Part shown: one piece after another, positions 46,160 through 58,064 of the stretch
How positions within the stretch are numbered: the stretch's first letter is position 1
Layout of the letters: every line of letters begins with the position of its first letter
Assembly (NCBI RefSeq): GCF_024505185.1
Contig: NZ_JANIBJ010000003.1
Coordinates: 1 to 64,000 of the forward strand
DNA: 64,000 bases
Source of the DNA: Methylomonas subterranea
Lineage (GTDB): Bacteria; Pseudomonadota; Gammaproteobacteria; Methylococcales; Methylomonadaceae
Direction: 5' to 3'
Translations under genes and position numbers: made by a program
The notes under the pieces: generated by a model
Database searches by the model: none
What the model was told of the DNA's origin: nothing
The model's input: only the letters and a program-made list of their open reading frames with translations

Positions 46160-46789
46160 ATGGAAGCACTTACCCGCAAGCAACACGAGATCATAGATTT
46201 CCTTTTAAACAATCAACAAGAGTTCAGCCAGCCGCTGTCGCTGGATAAACTATGCGCGGCCCTGGGCTTGAAGTCTCGCGGCTCCCTGCACCGCATCGTG
46301 CAGGACCTGATAGAGATCGGCTTGATAGAACCCATGGATAGAAAGCAGCGCGGCGTGCGCCTGACCGAAAAAGCCAGACAAATCAACCAAACCGCCGGCA
46401 GCCAAGGTTCTTCCTTGCGCTACGTCGGTGTAATCGCCGCCGGCAAGCCCATAGAAGCCATTGAAACTCAGGAATACATGACGGTTCCCGACCAGATCAG
46501 AACCGATAACCCTTGCTACGTGCTCAGGGTAAAGGGCGATTCCATGGTGGAAGAAGGCATTCACGACGGCGACTGGGTCATCATAGAACAGCGTTGCCAT
46601 GCCCGTAACGGCGAAATCGTGGTGGCATTGGTGGATAAAACCGAAGCTACCCTGAAGTTCATCGAACAATACCCGCACGAAACCTTGCTGGTGCCCGCCA
46701 ATTCCGGCATGCAAACCATGCATTACCAGCCGGCGCGGGTGGAAATTCAGGGTGTATTGGTCGGACAAATGCGCAGTTACCGGCGCTAG
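46160..46789 (+). CDS. lexA: LexA-type SOS repressor
   Basis: This 209-residue protein has an N-terminal winged helix (TRKQHEIIDFLL, SRGSLHRIVQDLIEIGLI), the autocleavage site A94-G95, catalytic Ser128 in GDSM and a catalytic Lys at 166 in TLKF. On DNA damage RecA filaments trigger self-cleavage and derepression. The recognition helix differs from E. coli LexA, matching the absence of a standard SOS box upstream. No imuAB/dnaE2 or recA neighbour is present, so it could be the main LexA or a second one. Confidence 0.9.
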   Translation: MEALTRKQHEIIDFLLNNQQEFSQPLSLDKLCAALGLKSRGSLHRIVQDLIEIGLIEPMDRKQRGVRLTEKARQINQTAGSQGSSLRYVGVIAAGKPIEAIETQEYMTVPDQIRTDNPCYVLRVKGDSMVEEGIHDGDWVIIEQRCHARNGEIVVALVDKTEATLKFIEQYPHETLLVPANSGMQTMHYQPARVEIQGVLVGQMRSYRR

Positions 46790-46949
46790 AGCCTGCCCGA
46801 TAACTCGACAATCAAAATTTTCATCGCAACAAGCCGTGCTTGGCTTTCATGTGTAGGATTACGCCCGCAATAACCGATACAAATCCAGCCAGATTTTAAA
46901 GGGCTTAGAACCGCCAATTGCCGACGACTGAGTTTTTACCAGCAGATGT

Positions 46950-47024
46950 GTAGGGTACGCATCGCGTACCATTAGATGAGCATCATGTTCGCGAAGACCG
47001 GAAGGTACGCGGTGCGTACCCTAC
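46950..47024. repeat. Long inverted repeat (GTAGGGTACGC family)
   Basis: GTAGGGTACGCATCGCGTACC pairs with GGTACGCGGTGCGTACCCTAC across about 33 bases; the arms are given by position, 46950-46970 and 47004-47024. It is an intergenic hairpin element in the gene-free stretch 46790-47502. Confidence 0.7.
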
Positions 47025-47054
47025 GGCGATCCTGAGGTTGCATATTGCCTTACC

Positions 47055-47153
47055 AAGATGTAGGCCGGAAAAGCGATAGCGTTTCCGGCAGCATGTGACA
47101 AATTGCAAAAGCTTTGCCGGAAACGCCTACCGGTTTATTCCGGCCTTGTATGC
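47055..47153. repeat. Long inverted repeat (TGTAGGCCGGAA family)
   Basis: TGTAGGCCGGAA and AGCGTTTCCGGCA near 47057-47090 pair with TGCCGGAAACGCT-like and TTCCGGCCTTGTA sequences at about 47117-47152. It is related to the unit at 42354. Between it and vsr (47154-47502) nothing coding is seen. Confidence 0.65.
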
Positions 47154-47502
47154 AATCCTTCGCCGCTGACCGTCGGCGGTCGGCCACTTTGCGACATTCA
47201 TGGATCGTCAGCGTATGACAGCAGGACAACCTAGAGCTGACGTTTAGTAAATAAGCTCAACGGGCAGCCCATTGATCAAGTTCGTCATGGAAGCTGAGAT
47301 AGTGTCAAGGTAAAAAGGCGTGCGAAAATTCGCATTAGTAGCTACACTCATGTGATTTTTTCCATCTTATTGCTTTTTAAAGAAATAGAAAAATTACGCA
47401 GTTTAGGGATTAGAACCCCGTTTTCTGGCATTTTTAGGCGGGATTTGACTGGCCACTACAGGAGGCGGCGAAAGACTTGCACGAGGTGAAGAGTGAAAAT
47501 AG

Positions 47503-47913
47503 GTGGATATTTATACAAAAGAAAAACGTAGCGAGGTAATGTCAAAAGTTCGGTCAAAAAATACAAATCCCGAACTAATAGTACGACAATTAATTTACGG
47601 TATGGGCTACCGATATCGATTGCATGTCGCTAGTTTGCCGGGAAAGCCCGATATCGTGATGAGTAAACGGCGAAAAATCATCGAAGTTCGCGGATGTTTT
47701 TGGCACGCACACGAAGGGTGTAAACATGCCACGCTACCAAAGACGAGGGCGGATTTTTGGGCTACTAAGATTGCATGCAATCGGGAACGAGATAAAAAAA
47801 ACTTGGATTGCCTAAATGAAAGTGGATGGGATGTCCTGATTGTTTGGCAATGCGAACTAAAAAACCTCGATATTTTAAAAAGTAAATTAAAAAAATTTAT
47901 AGATTCTGAGTAA
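47503..47913 (+). CDS. vsr: Very short patch repair-type endonuclease (Vsr)
   Basis: This 136-residue protein starts at GTG. The Vsr fold is clear: RSEVMSKVRSKNTNPEL, the catalytic Asp50 in LPGKPDIV, then RGCFWHAHEGCKHATLPKTR with the zinc-ligand and active-site Cys/His residues, and GWDVLIVWQCEL. Vsr nicks at T:G mismatches made by deamination of 5-methylcytosine, so it travels with C5-methyltransferase genes, one of which lies 5 kb away. It is convergent with the receiver-domain gene, 9 bp between stops. AT-rich codon use marks the start of an accessory island. It could act as the nuclease arm of the system. Confidence 0.92.
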   Translation: MDIYTKEKRSEVMSKVRSKNTNPELIVRQLIYGMGYRYRLHVASLPGKPDIVMSKRRKIIEVRGCFWHAHEGCKHATLPKTRADFWATKIACNRERDKKNLDCLNESGWDVLIVWQCELKNLDILKSKLKKFIDSE

Positions 47914-47922
47914 AGAGATTCG

Positions 47923-49596
47923 TTACTTTCGATACCATTCCGATTCTATGGTGGCGATTCTGGAAATGTCTTGTGCTAACTGGTGAATAACGTTTTGTAT
48001 ATAAAGGCTTTTTAATGCGCCTAACCATTTGTATTCGCGTCCGTCTGAGCCGGAAAAAAACCATCCAATATTACCTTTTTTGCAAGCCTTTATTACATCG
48101 TTAGCTTGAGAAGGTCTAAAAAGAATTTTTTGTATCTCGTAACCTTTTGTGGAAATTTGCCATTCATGCCATTCGTTATCCAGTTTTAAGAACACATCGC
48201 CTTTGTTGATTTTGTCACTGGATACCGGCTTGGCCGGAAGAAAAATAAACGCCTTCCCGCTCGATGGAACTCGGCGGCAATCGCATCCTTGTTGAACGCA
48301 AATTAGATATTCTTGTTTTCCTCCCCGCATTGTTTGAATAATAGTGCCCGGTTGGAGGAAGGGTGCCGGCTCTCCGTAATGATGGCGTATCAACGCGCGT
48401 TTTGCCCACAATCGATTGGATTCGACTTCATCATGCTTAGTGTCATTAATGAATTGGGACGTCATATTTAAAAGGCGTTGTGTCTTTTTCTTTTTATTTT
48501 TACCTGCAAAGTTAACTGCTCTAACGTTTAAGTCGGTTGGGGTATTATCATCGAACTCAGGTAACCCTGACTTTAACAGAAATTGTAGAGTTTCTTCCGC
48601 TTCCAGAAACGTAGTTTCGAAGAAGTCGTTTTTTAGGGCGTTTCTCTTGTGTAGATCTTGAGCCCAAGAAAACATGGTGTCGGCATCCAGCTTGTAGGAG
48701 ATATCGGCACTTTCCAAAATCTCTTGCAAATCGGAAACGATGACGTGGCGGAAGTGTTCTTCGGCTTCATCCGGGGTAGGGAGGCCTATCCGGTGAGCTA
48801 CGAATGCCGCATCCATTTGGTTGGAAAACAGATTCAACAGTTGGAAGGTGTTTTTTCGGATGGCCGATACAGCGGCAACGGCAGCATTCGTTAACAAACC
48901 GTTATGCTGATTGGCCAATATGTCTAAGATACGATCGGGCAGGCCGGATTCGGAACTGCTATTATCCTGATTGTTTCCGTTTTTTCTAATGATCGCTATC
49001 GTCATCGGGCCGACATGCATAACGTTGCCATTTTTATCAATCGGATGCGTGGATGATGCTGTTCCGTTAATGCCGGTTTCAATTTTATTCAGCAATTCAT
49101 CGTCCGATTTGGTTTCCGCCGTGTACACTGCAATCATTCTGATGCGGCCGGATTTCAGATCGTTTTCCGCTAACTGTTTGATTATGTTTACTGCGTGATC
49201 GCCGGCATTGTCAGCCGTTTCGTTTATTTCTGTTTCCGTATCCTCAACCTTTAGGTTCCAATCCAAAATTACGATATCGGCATTCGAGGCCGCTTTTACA
49301 ACTTGATTTGTCCAGCCACCCTTGTTTTCGGGACGAAAAACACCGCAAATAATGCCTTTATCTGCAAATGCTTCAATGATCTCTCCACAAAACAATTTGT
49401 GAGTTCTGCTGGCGAAGTCTTCAGCGCTCTCATTTTCTTCCTTTTCGACAGTACCAGCTCCTCGAGTCGGCTTATTTGTTGTTTTAGGAGTGGTCTTGCT
49501 TTCAGGATAAGAGGCCTCTTCGTCAACGACCAGTGCTGAGTTCAAGAAATCGAGAAAATTTTGTTTGGTCCGTGTTTGAAAGTCGGTGGTCGTCAT
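47923..49596 (-). CDS. Response-receiver-domain protein of the defence-like island
   Basis: In this 557-residue protein, residues 20-210 look like a divergent receiver domain: an acidic opening LVVDEEASY, and the probable phosphoacceptor D112 in DIVILDWNL, followed by an inserted acidic loop. The rest (220-557) is helical then beta-rich, with CDCRRVPSSGKAFIFLP and a C-terminal WFFSGSDGREYKWLG segment. No known DNA-binding or nuclease motif is recognised. It lies 23 bases after the histidine-kinase-like GHKL gene, in one minus-strand operon with the methyltransferase. A phosphate-switched effector is the natural reading, but the output function is unknown. Confidence 0.75.
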   Translation of the reverse strand: MTTTDFQTRTKQNFLDFLNSALVVDEEASYPESKTTPKTTNKPTRGAGTVEKEENESAEDFASRTHKLFCGEIIEAFADKGIICGVFRPENKGGWTNQVVKAASNADIVILDWNLKVEDTETEINETADNAGDHAVNIIKQLAENDLKSGRIRMIAVYTAETKSDDELLNKIETGINGTASSTHPIDKNGNVMHVGPMTIAIIRKNGNNQDNSSSESGLPDRILDILANQHNGLLTNAAVAAVSAIRKNTFQLLNLFSNQMDAAFVAHRIGLPTPDEAEEHFRHVIVSDLQEILESADISYKLDADTMFSWAQDLHKRNALKNDFFETTFLEAEETLQFLLKSGLPEFDDNTPTDLNVRAVNFAGKNKKKKTQRLLNMTSQFINDTKHDEVESNRLWAKRALIRHHYGEPAPFLQPGTIIQTMRGGKQEYLICVQQGCDCRRVPSSGKAFIFLPAKPVSSDKINKGDVFLKLDNEWHEWQISTKGYEIQKILFRPSQANDVIKACKKGNIGWFFSGSDGREYKWLGALKSLYIQNVIHQLAQDISRIATIESEWYRK

Positions 49597-49619
49597 TATT
49601 CATTCATACCGGTTGTAGT

Positions 49620-52568
49620 TTATTCCATGCGGATAGAGAATGTTGTATTCCATTCTCCTTCCGGTTTAAGCAATTCGAGTCGGAATCCGACCTTTTTTAA
49701 GGTTTCGTGCGAAATGTACAAACCCAGTCCGCGGCCACCCGGTTTGCGGGTAAATCCGGATTCGAAAACATCTACTCTGTCTCGTTCGGGTATCCCGGGC
49801 CCTGTATCTCGGACTAGCATTTCATCGTTTCGATAGTCGAAATGGATTCTACGGGCACCGTTCCGATCGGATAGCCAAAACACGGCGTTATCTACCAAGT
49901 TGACGAAAACGGGATAAAAAGAGGACGGAAAACTCTTAAACGAGTGTCTTAGAAAGGCGTTTGTTGCCGTGAATTCGACACTATGCCGCTCGAATCTTGC
50001 GGCAAATAAATCCCGAACGAATTTAAAGACTTCATCGCCGGCGATGTCCACTTTTTCGCGACGTAATCGACGATCCAATGGCTTGAATAGAGTTAAATAG
50101 CCGTCCAAATGTTCGAAGTTTGCCCGAATATTTCTATAAAGTCCCCTTAGGTCTTCATTTACGTCGGCCCAAGCCTTCAATTCGCGTAGGTTGTCGCGGA
50201 TAGACTTAACGTTCCCGTTAAATTCGTGGTCGATAATTTGTACCGCCATGCCCAATTGAGTCAGTTGTAGGTCCAAATCAGCCTGTTCTTCCAACGCCAA
50301 ATTGCTTTGTTCCAGCGCTTCAATTTGATCGAGCCTGTCATTGGATTTAACGTCGACAGACTCCAGTTGTGCACGGACATACTGAAAAAAGTCCTTTTCT
50401 TTCTCTTGAACTTCCAAAATGCGCTTTTCGAGGCTAATACGCGTTTCTACAATCGCCTCGTCGTGCATGGAAGTGACATCGAGCTTGCCGAAATCTCTTA
50501 TCACTTCGCTGACGACTCTTTCCACGTTAGCGATACTTTTGCCCGTAGCTTCATGAACTTCGATACCGACCTTTTCCAGCGTCTTGCGCGTAGCGGTATT
50601 CTCGCTTCTGGTAATTTTTCGCGAGCTGTTAGCCAGGTCTTCAAGGGCTGCTTCAATTCGTAAACGTCGGTCAAGTTCGATTCTTGCGCGTTCGGCTTCC
50701 CGGCCGACTAGTTCGCCTATTTGGTGTTCCAACGGCGAAAAAACCTGATTATTTAACTGCTCGATGGATGCGGAATATTTAGCCCAGTCCCGTTCTGCGC
50801 TTTTATTCAAGCCGACGCCGCGGGGACGCGTAATTTTGTACGATTCTTTCAAATCGGAAATTCGTTTGCGGGCTTTCGACTCAAGGCCGATAAATTCTTT
50901 CGCCGCTATTTTGGGGTCTCGAATCGCTTTGGCGACTCGAATGGATTCCTCTATGTCGGTGATAATTTCAGCAGCTTGTTCTGCCGGTTTGTTGGCGTCC
51001 AATTTGACGAAAAAATCGTCCAAACTTTGTTGCAACTTTTTGCGTTTTTCTCCGACTTGCATTTCTCTCTTTTCACGCGCGTCGGCGAGCCGTTCCAATT
51101 CTTTGCGTGTGGTAATGAAATGATCCGATTGTAATGCGTTTTCCCGGAAAAAGTCGGCAGCCAATTGCAGAAAGAAATTTTTCAAAATCGCTCTAAGATC
51201 CCGATAGGCCTTATTTTGTGAAAATCCTTCTCTGCCGGCTTTCTCCTTTAAGCCAGCGTTATCCGAACTATTAACGGAGACGACTCCGAACAAACGTCGA
51301 TACGAAAAAAAGTAATATGCGGCGCTCTTGTTTCGCCTTAATTCGAAATCGAGCCAATCGACGTCGGGGCCACCATAAGGCAATATGCGAATACCGTTTC
51401 GATAAATATACACTCCGCCTATACTCATCAATTTTGAGTTTAACAGTGCTCTTGTTTGAGGGTCGGAGTAGCTTTGTTTTTCCATTCCCGGTACGACTGC
51501 GACGTCGATGGAAAATTTTCCGCATTTCGTTTTTTCACCCCTCGCTTCCCGCCAAGGTATGACATGCTGGGGAAATTCTTTTCCGTAAATCCATACCGAA
51601 CCGACGAATTGGCCGTATTCATCAAACGACCCGGCGATACGATGATCGGCAGATAGAAAATCTTGCGGAGTGAAAAATTCTACCTCCGAAATCATGTCAT
51701 AGGCGCGGACATCGCTTTTCCAGTCTCGAAATGCGGGTTTAATTACCGGAGGCGGATGATCCGGGGTCATCGTATTGGTAAAGCCTAACAACACCTTCTT
51801 GAGCGGTGGGGCAATACCTTTTTCTTTTTCTATTTCTTCTTCGAGGTCGAGACTAAGCAATTCGGACGCCGGAAAAATAATAAAGTGGGTACCGAATCCG
51901 TCGTTTTTTAGCGACAGATTTTTAGACGGCAAATAGCCGTCGATTTCGACGGGATCGACAATAAAACTGTCCAGCTCGGCTTCTATGCGTTCTTTGAGTT
52001 CCGGCGGAAACTTTCGGACATTTTTGTCGATATTGGAACGAAATACTTCTACCATCTCGCGTACGTCGCCGGCATCCGGTAATTTTCCGAATTCGAATTC
52101 CCGGACCGGAATATCAATTTCGTCCAAATTTAGACCGGGACACTCGAATACGCTCCAATGAATAAATGCGGCAACCAGGGAGTGAGAAGAATCGCCACGT
52201 TTGGCTCGAGTCAGTATTAAGACCTGATTGCCGATAGCAGCAATTGCCAATCGGCCGATGCCTTTTTCGCCCAGCATCGTCCTCGGTTCTTTTCCGGCGG
52301 GTACAAACGGCAAAGAAAGCGCGTCCGAGCCCAGCTTACTTTCTGTGCCTAGAGTAAGCCAACGGGTTTCGAATTCTTCGCGCGTCATGCCAACGCCGTC
52401 GTCTCGCAATACGAACAAGCGGTCGTTCCGGAAAAAATCGACTTCTACGCTATCGGCATACGCATCGTGAGCGTTTTTGAATAGTTCGCTGATTGCGGTG
52501 GGTATCCCGGCAATTTGTTGTCGACCGAGCATGTCGACCGCGCGTGCTCGTGTTTTGAAACTGGCCAT
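49620..52568 (-). CDS. Dual-GHKL protein: MORC/Hsp90-like ATPase plus histidine-kinase-like module
   Basis: This 982-residue protein has two ATPase modules. The first (residues 1-250) has E28, N32 and D35 of the N-box (ISELFKNAHDAYADS), RDDGVGMT near 55-62 and MLGEKGIGRLAI near 98, as in MutL/Hsp90/MORC ATPases. Residues 270-480 form a transducer-like region and 480-760 a long coiled coil. H781 in IIDHEFNGNVKSIRDNL resembles a kinase phosphoacceptor helix. The C-terminal HATPase has VNLVDNAVFWL, VRDTGPGIP, FESGFTRKPGGRGLGL. It follows the methyltransferase by 3 bases and precedes the receiver protein. A DNA-sensing clamp that signals by phosphotransfer is inferred. Confidence 0.82.
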   Translation of the reverse strand: MASFKTRARAVDMLGRQQIAGIPTAISELFKNAHDAYADSVEVDFFRNDRLFVLRDDGVGMTREEFETRWLTLGTESKLGSDALSLPFVPAGKEPRTMLGEKGIGRLAIAAIGNQVLILTRAKRGDSSHSLVAAFIHWSVFECPGLNLDEIDIPVREFEFGKLPDAGDVREMVEVFRSNIDKNVRKFPPELKERIEAELDSFIVDPVEIDGYLPSKNLSLKNDGFGTHFIIFPASELLSLDLEEEIEKEKGIAPPLKKVLLGFTNTMTPDHPPPVIKPAFRDWKSDVRAYDMISEVEFFTPQDFLSADHRIAGSFDEYGQFVGSVWIYGKEFPQHVIPWREARGEKTKCGKFSIDVAVVPGMEKQSYSDPQTRALLNSKLMSIGGVYIYRNGIRILPYGGPDVDWLDFELRRNKSAAYYFFSYRRLFGVVSVNSSDNAGLKEKAGREGFSQNKAYRDLRAILKNFFLQLAADFFRENALQSDHFITTRKELERLADAREKREMQVGEKRKKLQQSLDDFFVKLDANKPAEQAAEIITDIEESIRVAKAIRDPKIAAKEFIGLESKARKRISDLKESYKITRPRGVGLNKSAERDWAKYSASIEQLNNQVFSPLEHQIGELVGREAERARIELDRRLRIEAALEDLANSSRKITRSENTATRKTLEKVGIEVHEATGKSIANVERVVSEVIRDFGKLDVTSMHDEAIVETRISLEKRILEVQEKEKDFFQYVRAQLESVDVKSNDRLDQIEALEQSNLALEEQADLDLQLTQLGMAVQIIDHEFNGNVKSIRDNLRELKAWADVNEDLRGLYRNIRANFEHLDGYLTLFKPLDRRLRREKVDIAGDEVFKFVRDLFAARFERHSVEFTATNAFLRHSFKSFPSSFYPVFVNLVDNAVFWLSDRNGARRIHFDYRNDEMLVRDTGPGIPERDRVDVFESGFTRKPGGRGLGLYISHETLKKVGFRLELLKPEGEWNTTFSIRME

Positions 52569-52571
52569 TCC

Positions 52572-53624
52572 TTAGGTTCTACTGTCCGATTTATTCCAAT
52601 TTTCCAATATGTGTTCGCCGAATCTTTGGGCCAGCAATACCGGTACCGCATTGCCGACTTGTCGCGCCATTGAATTCAAGCTCCCGTAAAGGTGGAAATT
52701 ACGGGGGAAAGTCTGTATGCAAGCGGCTTCGCGTACGCTAATAGCGCGATTCTGCTCCGGGTGGCCGAATCGGCCGTTAGATAGGCTAATGCAACGGGTT
52801 GTCAATCCGCTTGCAGGCGACTCCCATTTCATTCTTCCGTACACGTCGGTGTGTCCGTTATAACCGTGGCTATGACAATCTAAGCCTAAAGTTTTCGGCC
52901 AGTCGGAGCGACTGCCTTCCCGTGGAGTCCGTTTTATTCTTTCCAAATTCAATTCGGACAAATTTGCTGCGCGATGAACCGGATCGTTTGCGTCGGTTTC
53001 TCCCGCCTTTAATTCGGGCAATCCGGCAATCCAGTCTTTTACGGACGAATATTTCGGATTGGCGGTTTTCGGGCCGTGAGTAGGCTTCGGAAAATCGATT
53101 TCCCCGTGACGGCTTGCCAACAATACTAGGCGTTTTCGGCGTTGCGGGACGCCGTAATTCCATGCGGGAACGATCTCGAAGCGATAGTTGTAGCCAACTT
53201 TTTCGAGTAGTGCGATGAACGATGCTAAAGGACTGTCTTCAGCAGAAAGCTTTTGCAAGCCGGGTACGTTCTCTACAAAGATATATTCCGGCCGAAAATG
53301 TTCGACGAAACGGCCAAACTCTATAAGCAAGTTTCGCCTTGGGTCGGCGCTTTTTTTCGACGTTTTTTGTTTGGTGAACGGCTGGCAGGGCGCGCATCCG
53401 CAGAATAACAGCGGACCGTCGTGTTTAGCCACAATATCTTCGATATCCGTAGGAGAAACTAACGAAATATCGGAGCGAATAAATTCGGAGCCAGGATGAT
53501 TGGCTTTAAATGAAATCTCGGCGTCGGCATCGCAGTCCAAGCCCATTAAAATGTTCATCCCGGCTTGGCGGAAACCGGTGCTACTTCCCCCGCATCCGGA
53601 AAAAAAATCGCAGACTCCAATCAT
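52572..53624 (-). CDS. DNA (cytosine-5)-methyltransferase
   Basis: This 350-residue enzyme has the ordered C5-methylase motifs: I DFFSGCGGSSTGF (SAM site), IV with the catalytic C80 in CGCAPCQPF, VI with E118-N119-V120, VIII PQRRKRLVLLAS, and a C-terminal AISVREAACIQTFP plus QVGNAVPV. It methylates cytosine at C5 in a sequence it recognises through the region at about 180-270; the target cannot be read. It heads the minus-strand operon with the dual-GHKL and receiver genes. With the Vsr gene nearby it fits a Dcm/Vsr-type pair, and no conventional restriction enzyme gene is seen. Confidence 0.93.
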   Translation of the reverse strand: MIGVCDFFSGCGGSSTGFRQAGMNILMGLDCDADAEISFKANHPGSEFIRSDISLVSPTDIEDIVAKHDGPLLFCGCAPCQPFTKQKTSKKSADPRRNLLIEFGRFVEHFRPEYIFVENVPGLQKLSAEDSPLASFIALLEKVGYNYRFEIVPAWNYGVPQRRKRLVLLASRHGEIDFPKPTHGPKTANPKYSSVKDWIAGLPELKAGETDANDPVHRAANLSELNLERIKRTPREGSRSDWPKTLGLDCHSHGYNGHTDVYGRMKWESPASGLTTRCISLSNGRFGHPEQNRAISVREAACIQTFPRNFHLYGSLNSMARQVGNAVPVLLAQRFGEHILENWNKSDSRT

Positions 53625-54056
53625 TTTTTTTCAAATTTCGTTGGTTTTTGTAAGCGCACCTTATTTACTCCGGTCTTTCTCACGGGCATGTATTATGGGC
53701 ATTAACTAGTCTTGCCTGCCGGCGTATTCGACGTAATTATAGACCTACCACTTAAACGATCTATTGTTAATGTACCAAATAAGATGGAAGTATCAGGCTA
53801 ATTTGATAGGAAAGCGATCCTAGTAGGAAACCTTATAAACCTTACTTTGATACTTTGTTTGAAGAACTAACGTCCCAGGTCAAGAATTTTAACATTTTTA
53901 GGGATTTCCCCTCTCAGAATTACTCAGAGTCGGACATTACAATAAACAGTGTGCCGTGGCGACTATCAATTCCACCAGATGAATTGTTTCGATTTGGAGA
54001 CGTTGTTTAGGGCATTCGTCCCCACGTTCTTGCGCTTTGCGTTGGAGCGATACCGC
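53625..54056. other. Non-coding stretch upstream of the methyltransferase
   Basis: This AT-rich 430-bp stretch should hold the promoter of the methyltransferase operon. Stops occur in all frames and no gene is seen. At 54011-54050 a GGGCATTCGTCCCCACGTTC-type segment looks like debris of a dispersed element. Confidence 0.5.
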
Positions 54057-54872
54057 TTATTGACCGTTGTTAAGGCGACGAAGCAAGGCCCGACCAGTAA
54101 TAAGGGCTAGATGCAGTCGGAACGTACTGTGATCTTCGTCCGAGAGACCGGGATGCGATCCATCGGTATGCAGCATCTTGAACAAGCCGTTCAGGTAGTT
54201 CTTTCCGTCGCCAGTCCATTCATTCCTGCTGCTCGACAGGAACCCGCGCTCCGCGAGCCAGGCTCGGCGGTTCTCGCTCGACGGCAACTCGTTAGCTTGT
54301 GGATCAATGTGCGATGCGATGTCACTGAGCAAGCCTTCCAAGAAGGTTCGTATCTGACTGTTCGCCGCCGCCCAGTCACCTCGTGTATGCGCGTCGATTG
54401 CTTGGTCCAAGTGCCCCAAAGCCACGGTGAAACCGAACTGCTTCAGCAATTGATGAACTTCGTCATCGGCCTCAGGAAGTTCCACTTCACCAGGCAATGC
54501 CGCACGCAGTAATGGAGTTCGCGTGTCCTCATCCCAGGACACAACATAGCCATCGAGGGCCAATCCTCTCAGAAAACGTTCCTGCTCGGCCTTATTGTAT
54601 CGCGGAACGGTCGCACCAACGGCCTCGCGAACCGCGGCTTCGGCTAGTGTCATCGCTCTGCTCAACGTGCTGATCACTTGAGTCGCGCGTTGGGTAACAA
54701 TGCGTGCTAACAAGGCACTCTTCGCGGTCACGCTTTTTGCTGCCCCCAAAGGAATTTCGTCATCCAGCCCCAGCCGTATCACGAGCAGATCGAAATTTGC
54801 TTGCGTGAACTTTTCCCCGAGGAATTCAATCGCTGAGACAACAGTGGGACGGGTAAACGGATGGGGCTTCAT
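54057..54872 (-). CDS. Unknown protein, possible HEPN-like C-terminal domain
   Basis: The first 110 residues of this 271-residue protein are helical (DLLVIRLGLDDEIPLGAAKS opening). The C-terminal part has ANSQIRTFLEGLLSDIASHID near 170-190 and KMLHTDGSHPGLSDEDHSTFRLHLALITGRALL near 230-265, listed here in parts. A helical pair with an Arg/His-rich turn is reminiscent of HEPN or abortive-infection C-terminal domains, but the match is weak. It lies beside the methyltransferase island on the same strand but 430 bp away and with higher GC, so it may be a separate acquisition. The function is unknown. Confidence 0.55.
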   Translation of the reverse strand: MKPHPFTRPTVVSAIEFLGEKFTQANFDLLVIRLGLDDEIPLGAAKSVTAKSALLARIVTQRATQVISTLSRAMTLAEAAVREAVGATVPRYNKAEQERFLRGLALDGYVVSWDEDTRTPLLRAALPGEVELPEADDEVHQLLKQFGFTVALGHLDQAIDAHTRGDWAAANSQIRTFLEGLLSDIASHIDPQANELPSSENRRAWLAERGFLSSSRNEWTGDGKNYLNGLFKMLHTDGSHPGLSDEDHSTFRLHLALITGRALLRRLNNGQ

Positions 54873-55251
54873 GCTATCGGCTTTCTTTATTTGTCGTTAT
54901 AGTGCTGTCAAGCGCTTCCATCGCTGTTGTCACACCTTTTTTTCAGCTATGTCTACACCTGGGATGCCTTTGCGCGAGGCCAAAGAGCATCTACGTCATG
55001 GCAATGCAGCGCCCTCTTGGCTACGCGGTTGTTAGCTTGCCATCGTTCAACACTTCTGTATATCATCGGTGATAAGTAACTATGGCTGGTAATGATTAAA
55101 TCGCTGCCATTGAATCAGATTGACTGAAAGACCGCAACGGGTCGATTGCAACAATTCGCCATGTTCAAAAGCCATCATTTGCTACCGGCATCATCGCGTT
55201 CATAAAGGGGGGCGATTTGGCGCGAATAGGCCGGAGTGTTCCGGATTGCGG
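54873..55251. other. Gap without recognised gene
   Basis: No coding frame with a plausible start, no terminator and no clear repeat was seen in this 380-bp stretch between the unknown protein and the BaiN-type gene. It marks the junction from the accessory island back to backbone. Confidence 0.4.
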
Positions 55252-56439
55252 TCAGGCGTATTGCCCGGCGCACCAGCCGGAAGACCAGGCCCATTGGAAG
55301 TTGTAACCGCCCAACCAACCGGTCACATCCACCACTTCGCCGATAAAAAACAAACCCGGCACCCGCAAGGACTCCATGGTTTTGGACGACAAGGCGTCGC
55401 AATCGACGCCCCCCAAGGTTACTTCGGCGGTGCGATAACCCTCGCTGCCGTTCGGTTTGATATGCCAAGCCTGCAGATGATCGGCCACCCGCTGCAATTG
55501 CTTATCCGAACAATCGACCAGACTGGATTCTAGCAACGCTTCGGGCAATAAGGCCTGCAGCAGGCGCTTGGGTAAATACTCCGCCAGCCAGGTTTTGAGT
55601 TTCAACTTACCGCCCTGACCGCGCTGCTGTTTCAATAACGCAAGCAAGGCCATATCGGGCAAGCAATTGATCCGTAGCGCCTCGCCGGGCCGCCAATAGG
55701 AGGAAATCTGCAAAATGGCGGGACCGCTGAGGCCGCGATGGGTAAACAGCAGGTTTTCCCTGAATGAACGGTTTTGATAACTCACTTCGCACGGCACGGC
55801 GATACCGGTCAAGGCGGAAAACACGTCCTTATCGGCCGGTTGCAAGGTCAAGGGCACCAAGCCCGCGCGGGTCGGCCAGACTTTGATGTCGAATTGTTCC
55901 GCCAGTTGATAACCGAACGGCGTGGCGCCCATCTTGGGGATGGACAGTCCGCCGGTCGCCACCACCAGCGACCGGCAACGCATATCCCCTTGCGATGTCC
56001 GTAAATGAAACCCGCCGCCGCTGCCGCGAGCGACCTGCGCTATCGGGCAATTCAATACCAGTTCGACACCATGGCGCCGGCATTCGGCCAACAACATGTC
56101 CAATATGTCCCTGGCGCTGTTATCGCAGAACAACTGCCCGTGCAAACGTTCGTGGAAAGGGATTTGGTAACGCTGCACCAAGGCCAGGAAATCCCATTGG
56201 TTGAAACGCTTTAATGCCGATTTGCAAAAATGCGGGTTATGGGAAATATAGCGCTCCGGCTCCAGCGTGTAATTGGTAAAGTTACAGCGACCGCCGCCGG
56301 ACATCAGAATTTTTTTACCGGGCCGGTTGGCATGATCCAACACTCGCACCTTGCGCCCGCGTTTTGCGGCTTCCATTGCGCACATCAGGCCCGATGCGCC
56401 GGCGCCTATTACCAACACATCTACTTTCATATCAGACAT
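55252..56439 (-). CDS. BaiN/RdsA-family FAD-dependent oxidoreductase (HI0933-like)
   Basis: The protein is 395 residues from MSDMKVDVLVIGAGASGLM, chosen for the AAGG site about 10 bases upstream. It has the N-terminal FAD loop GAGASGLMCAMEAAKRG, RPGKKILMSGGGRCNFTN, and the closing VTGWLGGYNFQWAWSSGW, all typical of the HI0933/YhiN flavoprotein family. The substrate is unknown in most bacteria. It overlaps slightly in context with the histidine kinase gene 32 bases upstream on the same strand. Confidence 0.88.
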   Translation of the reverse strand: MSDMKVDVLVIGAGASGLMCAMEAAKRGRKVRVLDHANRPGKKILMSGGGRCNFTNYTLEPERYISHNPHFCKSALKRFNQWDFLALVQRYQIPFHERLHGQLFCDNSARDILDMLLAECRRHGVELVLNCPIAQVARGSGGGFHLRTSQGDMRCRSLVVATGGLSIPKMGATPFGYQLAEQFDIKVWPTRAGLVPLTLQPADKDVFSALTGIAVPCEVSYQNRSFRENLLFTHRGLSGPAILQISSYWRPGEALRINCLPDMALLALLKQQRGQGGKLKLKTWLAEYLPKRLLQALLPEALLESSLVDCSDKQLQRVADHLQAWHIKPNGSEGYRTAEVTLGGVDCDALSSKTMESLRVPGLFFIGEVVDVTGWLGGYNFQWAWSSGWCAGQYA

Positions 56440-56471
56440 GCCGGCAACTACCTTGAAATGAATCCATATAA

Positions 56472-58064
56472 TCAAATAAGCGGCTTGGTTTTAACGATGG
56501 GCCTATCTTGCAGTTCAATCACAAAATTGGCGCCGTCGGCGTCATTAAAGGCTTGCAATGAACCCATCATATTGTTTTCTATAATGATTTTCGACATATA
56601 AAGCCCGATGCCGGTACCTTTCCCTTGATCCTTGGTGGTGAAGTAGGGATCGTAAATTTTATCGAAAATAGCCTCGGGAATACCGCCCGCGTTATCCTTT
56701 ACCACGATACGCGTGGTTTGGTCGCTTGTTTTATTCACGCCGATATCGATAGCCGGTCGCAGCGGCCGCCTTTCCAGCAAAATGTCCTTTGCGTTATTGA
56801 TTAAATTTAAAATCACTTGAGAAAACTCCCCTTCCAAGCCGTTTATCATTAAGTCGTCCGGGCAATTTATCGTTAAAACAATATTATGCCGCTTCAATTG
56901 CGCATCCAATAATTCGGCAGTCGTCTGAATCACATGATAGGCATTAAACGGTTCGATATGTTTATTGGGTTTAAAAAAGTTTCTAAAGTCGTCTATGGTA
57001 GTCGACATTTTATGAATCAAGCGATCCGACTTTTCCATGCTGGATACCATGAAACTTTCGTCCAATTTACCCAATTTAAATCTTAACTGCAGATTCTGCT
57101 GCACCAAGCCCAGCGCATTCAAGGGTTGGCGCCATTGATGGGCGATGGCGCCTATCATTTCCCCCATGGCGGCGGAGCGCGATTGGTGAATCAGCAAGGC
57201 CTCCTGCGTTTTACTCTTGGCAACTTCTTCCTTGATCCTTTTATCCAGGTCGGCATTCAAATCGGCGAGTTCCCGCGTGCGGGTGCCGACTTCGCGTTCC
57301 AGTTCCTGGTTGTAATGCTCCAGGGCTTGATTGGACAGCATCAGCGAATCGACCATTTTGTTGAAGCTATCCGACAACACGCCGATTTCATCGTTGCGCG
57401 CTATGGTAGATCTAACGGTCAAATCGCCCGCCGCAACCTGAGTTGCCAGTTGACTGATGGTCGAAACCGGATCGGATATCCACCTGGCAAAAAAGAAACC
57501 CACCACCAGAATCATAACCAATGAGGCGCTGATGATATATATAATTTTATAATACATATCATGGATATATTTATCGTAGTCGGCGGTTGAAAAACCTATA
57601 TGCAGCCAGCCCCAGTCTATACTGGAGAAGCGGATGGGATATACAAAATGATAAACATTTTTGTACTGTTCCCTATCCGTTATAACAAAGGAAATTTTTT
57701 CGCCTTGCAATGCGGCCGTATTACTATCCAATTCAGCCAGCAGATGCCAGTTTTTCTGGTTGACGAATATTTTATCGCCCTGTTTTGGCGAGACAATCAG
57801 ATAATAAATACCGGCGTTATTTTTTAAAACCTCGACATTATGCTCCACGATAAAGCCATAATCCTTGCTGATGATGGCGTCGGACGTGGCCTGCACGATG
57901 GATTTGGATACCGTTTCCGCCTGCGCATACATAATCTGCCGCAATGCGGTTTTCTGCATGGGAATAACCATAAAGGCAAAGAACAAGGTAATGGCCAATA
58001 CCAAAAAGGCAAAAACCCAAAAAACACGTAGAAATATGGTGCGCTTCGGTTTAATGACAGTCAT
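56472..58064 (-). CDS. Membrane sensor histidine kinase
   Basis: This 530-residue protein has a first membrane helix at about 10-32, a periplasmic sensor of about 140 residues, a second helix near 175-195, a HAMP segment, a coiled coil, and the kinase core: H309 in IAHQWRQPLNALGL (phosphoacceptor), N-box NLINNAKDIL, GGIPEAIFDKIYDPYFTTK and GTGIGLYMSK. It follows a PhnD-like periplasmic binding protein by 82 bases in one unit. This suggests that the binding protein delivers the signal. No response regulator is adjacent. Confidence 0.9.
   Translation of the reverse strand: MTVIKPKRTIFLRVFWVFAFLVLAITLFFAFMVIPMQKTALRQIMYAQAETVSKSIVQATSDAIISKDYGFIVEHNVEVLKNNAGIYYLIVSPKQGDKIFVNQKNWHLLAELDSNTAALQGEKISFVITDREQYKNVYHFVYPIRFSSIDWGWLHIGFSTADYDKYIHDMYYKIIYIISASLVMILVVGFFFARWISDPVSTISQLATQVAAGDLTVRSTIARNDEIGVLSDSFNKMVDSLMLSNQALEHYNQELEREVGTRTRELADLNADLDKRIKEEVAKSKTQEALLIHQSRSAAMGEMIGAIAHQWRQPLNALGLVQQNLQLRFKLGKLDESFMVSSMEKSDRLIHKMSTTIDDFRNFFKPNKHIEPFNAYHVIQTTAELLDAQLKRHNIVLTINCPDDLMINGLEGEFSQVILNLINNAKDILLERRPLRPAIDIGVNKTSDQTTRIVVKDNAGGIPEAIFDKIYDPYFTTKDQGKGTGIGLYMSKIIIENNMMGSLQAFNDADGANFVIELQDRPIVKTKPLI

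Follow-up and report, generated by a model that had tools for sequence, protein, structure and literature searches.

A two-headed GHKL/HEF_HK kinase and a response regulator with a predicted MazF/CcdB-like fold in a putative DNA-methylation-linked defence module of Methylomonas subterranea

Analysis of a 64,000-nucleotide stretch of the Methylomonas subterranea genome (positions 1 to 64,000 of contig NZ_JANIBJ010000003.1, assembly GCF_024505185.1; hereafter, the window) focused on a gene at 49620..52568 of the minus strand, an open frame with an ATG start, which encodes a protein of 982 residues carrying two ATP-binding modules and a kinase-type histidine, an observation of a preliminary description that is confirmed here. 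This two-headed GHKL/HEF_HK kinase belongs to an already described family, and its function as part of a defence module is putative; what is new is the prediction of an effector fold for its partner, a split between Asp and Asn in the kinase half of the family and a branch of relatives that lack the long coil. With our confidence evenly balanced, we regard the kinase as the sensor of a cytoplasmic phosphorelay within a mobile DNA-methylation module, most likely one of defence (restriction or abortive infection), with a toxin-like output of the response regulator. Most of the functional information is held by the operon context, that is, a methylase, the regulator and a Vsr endonuclease, which was absent from the preliminary description.

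The N-terminal module of the kinase (HATPase_c_3, residues 24-129; 52182..52499, minus strand) is a GHKL ATPase of the MutL/Hsp90/MORC type, matched in Pfam at E 3.7e-15. A charged helical linker, delineated by composition and periodicity (residues 486-770; 50259..51113, minus strand), leads to the DHp-like HEF_HK domain (PF19191, residues 771-837; 50058..50258, minus strand), with an E value of 5.7e-30 and a score of 104 bits against the curated cut-off of 24.1, and the chain ends in a kinase CA domain (HATPase_c, residues 884-980; 49629..49919, minus strand; E 2.8e-16). When a profile of 15 homologues was compared with the PDB, its N-terminus matched endoplasmin, an Hsp90-type protein (E 4.8e-5), and MutL (E 8.6e-5), and its positions 758-984 matched 3a0r (E 2.3e-20), which likens the C-terminal module to histidine kinases. 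Both the Pfam and the PDB comparisons thus bear out the earlier claim that two GHKL modules of different subfamilies are joined in one chain.

Conservation was assessed in an alignment of 102 distinct full-length kinases, obtained from 123 frames that matched the profile, of which 108 passed the length and score limits and six were removed as duplicates; the 15 excluded frames comprise split or contig-cut copies (L075, L050, L123 and L085), the short kinase L029 and single-domain kinases. Peptide-pattern scans without the histidine in the pattern contributed 91 of the sequences, a search with the HEF_HK model 10 and the window one, and four finds of one histidine-free scan were recovered again by N-terminal patterns. 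The relatives from the genome collection are the best 80 of 419 confirmed, so that the sample leans toward close relatives. H781 (codon 50226-50228, minus strand), the residue singled out earlier as a kinase-type histidine, lies in the HEF_HK domain and is invariant (102/102), and the next residue is acidic throughout (position 782 is Glu in 101 sequences and Asp in one). The N-terminal loops that had been compared with those of MORC, Hsp90 and MutL are preserved just as strictly: E28, K31, N32, D35, D56, G58, G60, M61, G100, K102, G103, G105 and R106, which cover the GHKL motifs E-N-D, DxGxGM and GxKGxGR, occur in 102/102 proteins, with less strict positions at D57 (Asp in 81, Asn in 21) and E101 (Glu in 95, Gln in 7) and a single Val in place of the isoleucine of GxKGIGR. 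In the C-terminal half, N890 and N894 of the N-box are found in 102/102 kinases and the lid glycines G945, G947 and G949 in 101/102, the sole gap being the frame-broken L050. ATP-binding residues are accordingly present in both halves, and neither variability of H781 nor loss of the C-terminal residues, the two outcomes that the preliminary description had set against its own proposal, was seen.

Conservation within the kinase is highest in the N-terminal ATPase (mean pairwise distance of 0.35 across 78 loci; 34 of its 130 columns at 95% identity or more), and a further conserved region follows the GHKL domain (K443, G445, R446, E447 and G448, 102/102), which no S5 model of Pfam matched. Compared with this ATPase, the kinase half is more variable, its G1 Asp being replaced by Asn in 41/101 sequences. 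Homologues with Asn921 include most of those from records titled as Bacteroidota groups; the N-terminal Asp56 is invariant. Split frames of the regulator or the kinase were encountered in L079 (11954-13760), L116 (11894-13515), L050 (3492-6446) and L075 (3846-6848), reflecting either decay or sequencing error.

The linker had been described as a long coiled coil, and its charged character (43% Lys, Arg, Glu, Asp and Gln) and helical periodicity in parts agree with this description. Alignment-averaged hydrophobicity is periodic at residues 590-680 and 660-770, to a degree reached by 0 of 1000 permutations, and more faintly at 486-575 (30 of 1000), the same test giving 948, 996 and 87 of 1000 for residues 1-130, 880-975 and 130-480, respectively. 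One unbroken coil, however, is not supported, because a PRGxGL element (residues 582-587), whose P582 is kept in 94% of the sequences, splits the linker.

The response-regulator partner (Response_reg_2, E 4.1e-32; 557 residues; 47923..49596, minus strand) begins 23 bp after the kinase gene. Its receiver domain (residues 17-208; 48973..49548, minus strand) is indicated by Pfam, by the alignment and by a model from 11 sequences, which has a predicted receiver fold (Z 11.8, root mean square deviation 2.5 over 115 residues against known receivers). The regulator alignment comprises 80 of 111 matching frames; the other 31 were set aside as duplicate, cut, broken or low-scoring. D25, D107 and D112, the last being the predicted phospho-acceptor (codon 49261-49263, minus strand; assigned from the alignment), are found in 80/80 regulators; the second acidic residue is Asp in 74, Asn in 5 and Glu in 1, T159 is Thr in 73, Ser in 6 and Ala in 1, and K205 is kept in 79/80. 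Together, these residues make up a complete receiver active site in the regulator. As a check, 15 of the excluded regulators, 4 near relatives and 11 members of a distant clade, were re-added: D112 is kept in 15/15, C438-D439 in 14 and C433 in 13. In MutL and MORC proteins, ATP brings the GHKL domains together as a dimer that clamps DNA; DHp/CA pairs phosphorylate a histidine of their own, and receivers take over the phosphoryl group on an aspartate. Coupling of a clamp cycle to phosphorylation, as suggested in the preliminary description, is the natural reading of a two-headed kinase, with closure, turnover and autophosphorylation all putative, and the acceptor that such coupling needs exists next door, in the adjoining receiver-domain protein with its Asp112.

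The output domain of the regulator (residues 410-548; 47953..48369, minus strand) is predicted to form a MazF/Kid/CcdB-like barrel and bears a Cys-Asp signature, Cx4CD (C433 and C438 in 80/80, D439 and R442 in 78/80). Modelled alone from 80 sequences, the C-terminal 350 residues (predicted local distance difference test 90.1, predicted template modelling score 0.85) form a helical bundle and then a beta-barrel with a C-terminal helix. In a VIA-align comparison of the barrel with known structures, all 50 listed rows carry MazF, Kid, CcdB or equivalent toxin labels, the best with Z 9.4 and a root mean square deviation of 2.7 over 96 aligned residues; in Foldseek, 40 of the 50 listed rows are MazF-type, with probabilities of 0.97-1.00, E values from 2.7e-3 and template modelling (TM) scores by target of 0.51-0.65. 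The C-terminal half of the regulator is thus predicted to fold like MazF/CcdB toxins; a shared fold is claimed and family membership is not, because sequence profiles give no support for homology. The regulator differs from MazF, Kid and CcdB in having no detectable sequence-profile similarity to them and a Cx4CD signature of its own. The catalytic residues of MazF are Arg and Thr, and no conserved Arg or Thr appears at the expected places of the regulator, as judged by strand order in the alignment and model.

Apart from Response_reg_2, scans of PADLOC, NCBIfam and PHROGs assigned the window regulator to no family, and Pfam gave just a DUF6593 match below threshold; a member-by-member Pfam scan of the C-terminal halves of the 80 regulators gave scattered weak matches; and the regulator profile had one chance match in the PDB (E 4.7). 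Nothing in a viral fold library matched the output model at E <= 0.001, the top two rows being an endoribonuclease and a PemK-like protein with low TM scores, and for the middle helical part (residues 208-400) there was no match among the structural rows listed, a weak test. Effector swapping among regulators was also considered and rejected: this output domain can also be recognised in members of the distant clade, and no swap was found.

A C5-cytosine DNA methyltransferase, identified by domain and family scans (52572..53624, minus strand), ends 3 bp before the kinase gene, so that the operon reads methylase, 3 bp, kinase, 23 bp, regulator, and a Vsr-type endonuclease (47503..47913, plus strand) is convergent to it. 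This arrangement recurs: the regulator lies downstream of the kinase on the same strand in 100/102 loci, within 100 bp in 98, and in the two loci without it the contig ends just 32 and 1434 bp past the kinase. Within 6 kb, 98/102 loci have a C5 methylase, the nearest one being upstream and on the same strand in 91, and methylase, kinase and regulator occur together in every one of the 51 loci flanked by 5 kb or more on each side. Across an even phylum sample, HEF_HK was detected in 14/398 genomes and Response_reg_2 in 11/396, the latter being the same 11 that encode long HEF_HK kinases; the other three HEF_HK matches score at most 28.3 bits, and one of them lies in a short kinase. Distances of the DHp and receiver domains correlate across 78 loci (r 0.65, 0 of 500 permutations), as do those of the methylase and the kinase parts (0.38-0.61). 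Like the domains and conserved residues, the operon and its co-inheritance are established at the level of sequence.

Vsr is less constant. It was found in 51/102 loci and in 26 of the 51 complete ones, the other 25 having none within 5 kb, and we infer that it is accessory because it is missing in half of the loci. The Vsr of the window has Arg at the position of His64 of the E. coli enzyme, where 39/57 Vsr-like frames (duplicate loci included) have His; its Arg at His64 and Glu at Phe62 each occur once in the 57 frames, and the D51, H69 and D97 positions are kept. Neighbours were surveyed as open reading frames of at least 100 residues within 7 kb of the 102 loci, grouped by BLAST at 40% coverage and named by reading the sequences. 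Integrase-like (9 loci), HNH-like (7) and P-loop (7) proteins recur, but no universal nuclease was found in this survey, and the regulator is therefore the constant candidate effector. As a candidate for a cognate restriction endonuclease, only Vsr was found among the five island proteins scanned, and none of the five is a superfamily II helicase. The P-loop protein, of about 600 residues, lies shortly after the regulator in its 7/102 loci, for example at 7351-9159 of L098.

A branch of shorter kinases (708-745 residues), all without the long helical linker, is represented by eight loci (L029, L145-L147 and L193-L196). The HE motif is present in 8/8, both GHKL domains were detected by Pfam in the four proteins scanned, and comparison of the short and long kinase profiles gave a probability of 100 (E 3e-65). 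Each short kinase is directly followed by a receiver-like protein of 353-466 residues; seven of these align and share an invariant Cys-Asp and an Arg-x-Gly near the end, and that of L029 (400 residues) falls outside the alignment and has no such Cys-Asp. Pfam matched none of the four short-branch regulators scanned, and receiver-type Asp residues were recognised by eye only. By full-length profile, a subgroup of four resembles the Response_reg_2 proteins (probability 86%, E 4.7e-6), a subgroup of three does not do so significantly (5.7%), and profile comparison of the short-branch regulators with MazF was negative. The loci include a methylase in 6/8 and a Vsr-like frame in 4/8, and one more locus has a partial Vsr match; these counts imply no frequencies because the loci are few and were collected through similarity.

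The genes of the window reside in an insert (46790..55251, ends approximate) between lexA (46160-46789) and a flavoprotein gene (55252-56475). In congener G405 (L143), the site is empty, with homologues of lexA and the flavoprotein gene (83% and 87% identical) about 20 bp apart, as against 8.5 kb in the window, and in G411 other genes fill it. One of the 24 congeners searched (some of them incomplete), G410, has a full-length kinase copy, 46% identical and in another place. A search with the whole kinase at E <= 0.001 gave matches in 38/41 genomes, nearly all of them to short stretches of ordinary kinases, and full-length matches in the source genome and G410 only. Relatives of the kinase also occur in fifteen IMG/VR contigs, one of which is cut inside the gene. 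The G+C content of the insert is 40-51% compared with 55-61% upstream, but fails on its own to mark the end of the insert because 57-58.5 kb is equally low. The insert further contains a minus-strand gene for a 271-residue protein (54057..54872) that went unmatched in Pfam, PADLOC, NCBIfam and PHROGs under the limits applied and whose membership in the system is doubtful. In the intergenic region between lexA and Vsr (46790-47502), GGGTACGC...GCGTACC palindromes and a GCCGGAAA...TTTCCGGC element look repeat-like by eye.

In the mechanism that we propose, the C5 methylase would mark host DNA as self, and the N-terminal MutL/MORC-like clamp would recognise DNA, or a DNA-bound state, in which the mark is missing or infection is signalled. 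Closure of the dimer, driven by ATP, would be relayed along the linker to the kinase core formed by HEF_HK and HATPase_c, where H781 would be phosphorylated; the phosphoryl group would then be transferred to Asp112 of the neighbouring regulator, and phosphorylation would free the C-terminal MazF/CcdB-like domain as a toxin-like effector, with Vsr, in about half of the loci, playing an accessory part as nickase or repair enzyme. Here, methylation-state sensing, phosphotransfer, toxin activity and defence are what we infer. The His-Asp relay step probably takes place, and a role of the module in defence is somewhat favoured, whereas a toxin-like output of the regulator is a tentative proposal. 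More tentative still is the complete picture of a methylation-linked immune phosphorelay in which a MutL-like clamp reads DNA, the regulator itself is the killer, a toxin of MazF/CcdB fold with a Cys-Asp active site, and the same logic operates in the coil-less branch with very divergent regulators. Detocs is, like the proposed system, a defence phosphorelay by which an effector linked to a receiver is activated, but it differs in having no methylase, an ATP-degrading effector and an unrelated sensor.

Several observations weigh against this interpretation. As regards the output domain, a Z of 9.4 is modestly above the 7-8 typical for models without a clear match; Foldseek gave no match at E <= 0.001 (the best MazF row has E 2.7e-3), and 10 of its 50 listed rows, including rank 1, are unrelated (probability 0.14-0.54). 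Profile comparison (hhalign) of the regulator with 29 PemK/MazF sequences gave a probability of 1.8%, the 25 Pfam families listed (of 43) for the 80 regulators do not include PemK, and one regulator, in L065 (11696-13132), possibly a damaged frame, has no output motif. In the distant clade, R442 is lost, and Lys205 is unaligned in 8 of the 11 regulators. The C-terminal G1 residue, D921, is Asp in 60 kinases, Asn in 41 and a gap in one; the window protein keeps Asp, but Asn at this site weakens the kinase interpretation for some members. For the CA domain, the correlation with the methylase (0.61) is no weaker than that with the receiver (0.59), and the distance correlations consequently speak for co-inheritance more than for a specific pair. 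No kinase match was found in 72,556 plasmid records (E 1e-60) or 50,697 phage records (E 1e-40), and a search of the full-text literature, with subscription papers mostly outside its scope, retrieved no functional experiments on the kinase-regulator pair. Finally, the only data found are of raised expression of such genes in Pectobacterium on potato (PMC8011034), a result that lends no support to phage defence.

Among other explanations, a regulatory two-component system, with the phosphorylated regulator controlling methylase/Vsr or other genes, would account for the position of the kinase-regulator pair next to restriction-modification genes, and signalling control of such systems is speculated upon in the available text of PMC8011034. 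We consider it unlikely: Pfam detects no helix-turn-helix or other DNA-binding family in the window regulator and, apart from weak DnaA_N matches in 2, none among the 25 of 43 families listed for the 80 regulators, and the predicted output fold resembles MazF/CcdB and not a winged helix. Nor is it likely that the kinase is a DNA-looping ATPase of the paraMORC kind that serves a restriction nuclease, with the His-Asp pair as a minor tuning device or relic. The model of Iyer et al. (2008; PMC2292703, as far as available), the high conservation of the N-terminal ATPase and the neighbouring Vsr and methylase all favour this explanation, but the constraint on H781 (102/102) and D112 (80/80 plus 15/15) is strict, and 25/51 complete loci lack Vsr. 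Repair of methylation damage, in which Vsr would correct T:G mismatches left by deamination of 5-methylcytosine and the MutL-like kinase would assist and signal, is suggested by the joint presence of Vsr and a C5 methylase, by the MutL-like GHKL domain and by a functional MutL-Vsr interaction among the references cited in the accessible part of Iyer et al. (PMC2292703). It is improbable in view of the 25/51 complete loci that have no Vsr within 5 kb, the Arg of the window Vsr at the H64 position (His in 39/57 frames) and the patchy distribution. The replacement of the G1 Asp by Asn in 41/101 kinases could also mean that the C-terminal GHKL half of many members is no longer a kinase but a phosphatase or nucleotide sensor only, of which there is a slim chance, given that the N-box Asn is kept in 102/102 and the lid glycines in 101/102, that the window protein retains Asp921 and that Asn likewise occupies the G1 position in kinases of the AgrC type.

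The phosphorelay proposed here can be placed among described families. The HEF_HK and Response_reg_2 domains were defined by Bellieny-Rabelo, Pretorius and Moleleki (2021; PMC8011034), a report to which the Pfam HEF_HK match led and which removes the novelty implied for the layout in the preliminary description: according to its available text, the order HATPase_c_3, HEF_HK, HATPase_c is that of group 1, with 174/222 proteins. The same portions record an adjacent Response_reg_2 gene in 91.6% of 644 regions, a C5 methylase often upstream and association with Vsr in 20 genera, and propose a paraMORC origin for the kinase family (PMC8011034). With the same domain order and neighbours, the window operon is a member; the MazF/CcdB-like output fold, the Asp/Asn split at G1 and the short-kinase relatives are added here to what the available text of that report holds, in which the word 'MazF' does not occur (PMC8011034), and a search of the full-text literature found no MazF-like or other output domain of the regulator in print. 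The wider theme of MORC/paraMORC GHKL proteins in restriction-modification operons was described by Iyer, Abhiman and Aravind (2008; PMC2292703), in whose accessible text a superfamily II helicase is frequent, though not constant, in paraMORC operons. The window kinase resembles these systems in its N-terminal MutL/MORC-type GHKL domain beside a C5 methylase and Vsr, but differs from them, as far as they are described there, by the fused second, kinase-type GHKL with a DHp helix, by the neighbouring receiver and by the lack of a helicase among the five island proteins scanned (PMC2292703). VcSduA, a Shedu protein of the paraMORC3 group with a GHKL N-terminus, shares the ATPase type and has proven anti-phage activity, for which E27 is needed; its effector is a fused PD-(D/E)xK nuclease, and no kinase half or receiver is described in the portion of the report available (PMC12137116). 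By analogy, VcSduA supports a general role of GHKL domains in defence, but not the mechanism suggested for the window.

The kinase family has been known from sequence since 2021, as the accessible part of the defining report documents (PMC8011034). The prediction of a MazF/CcdB fold turns what was a two-component-like pair near restriction-modification genes into a concrete effector hypothesis. If it holds true, DNA-methylation marking, MutL/MORC-type clamps and histidine-aspartate signalling would be united in a single immune module.

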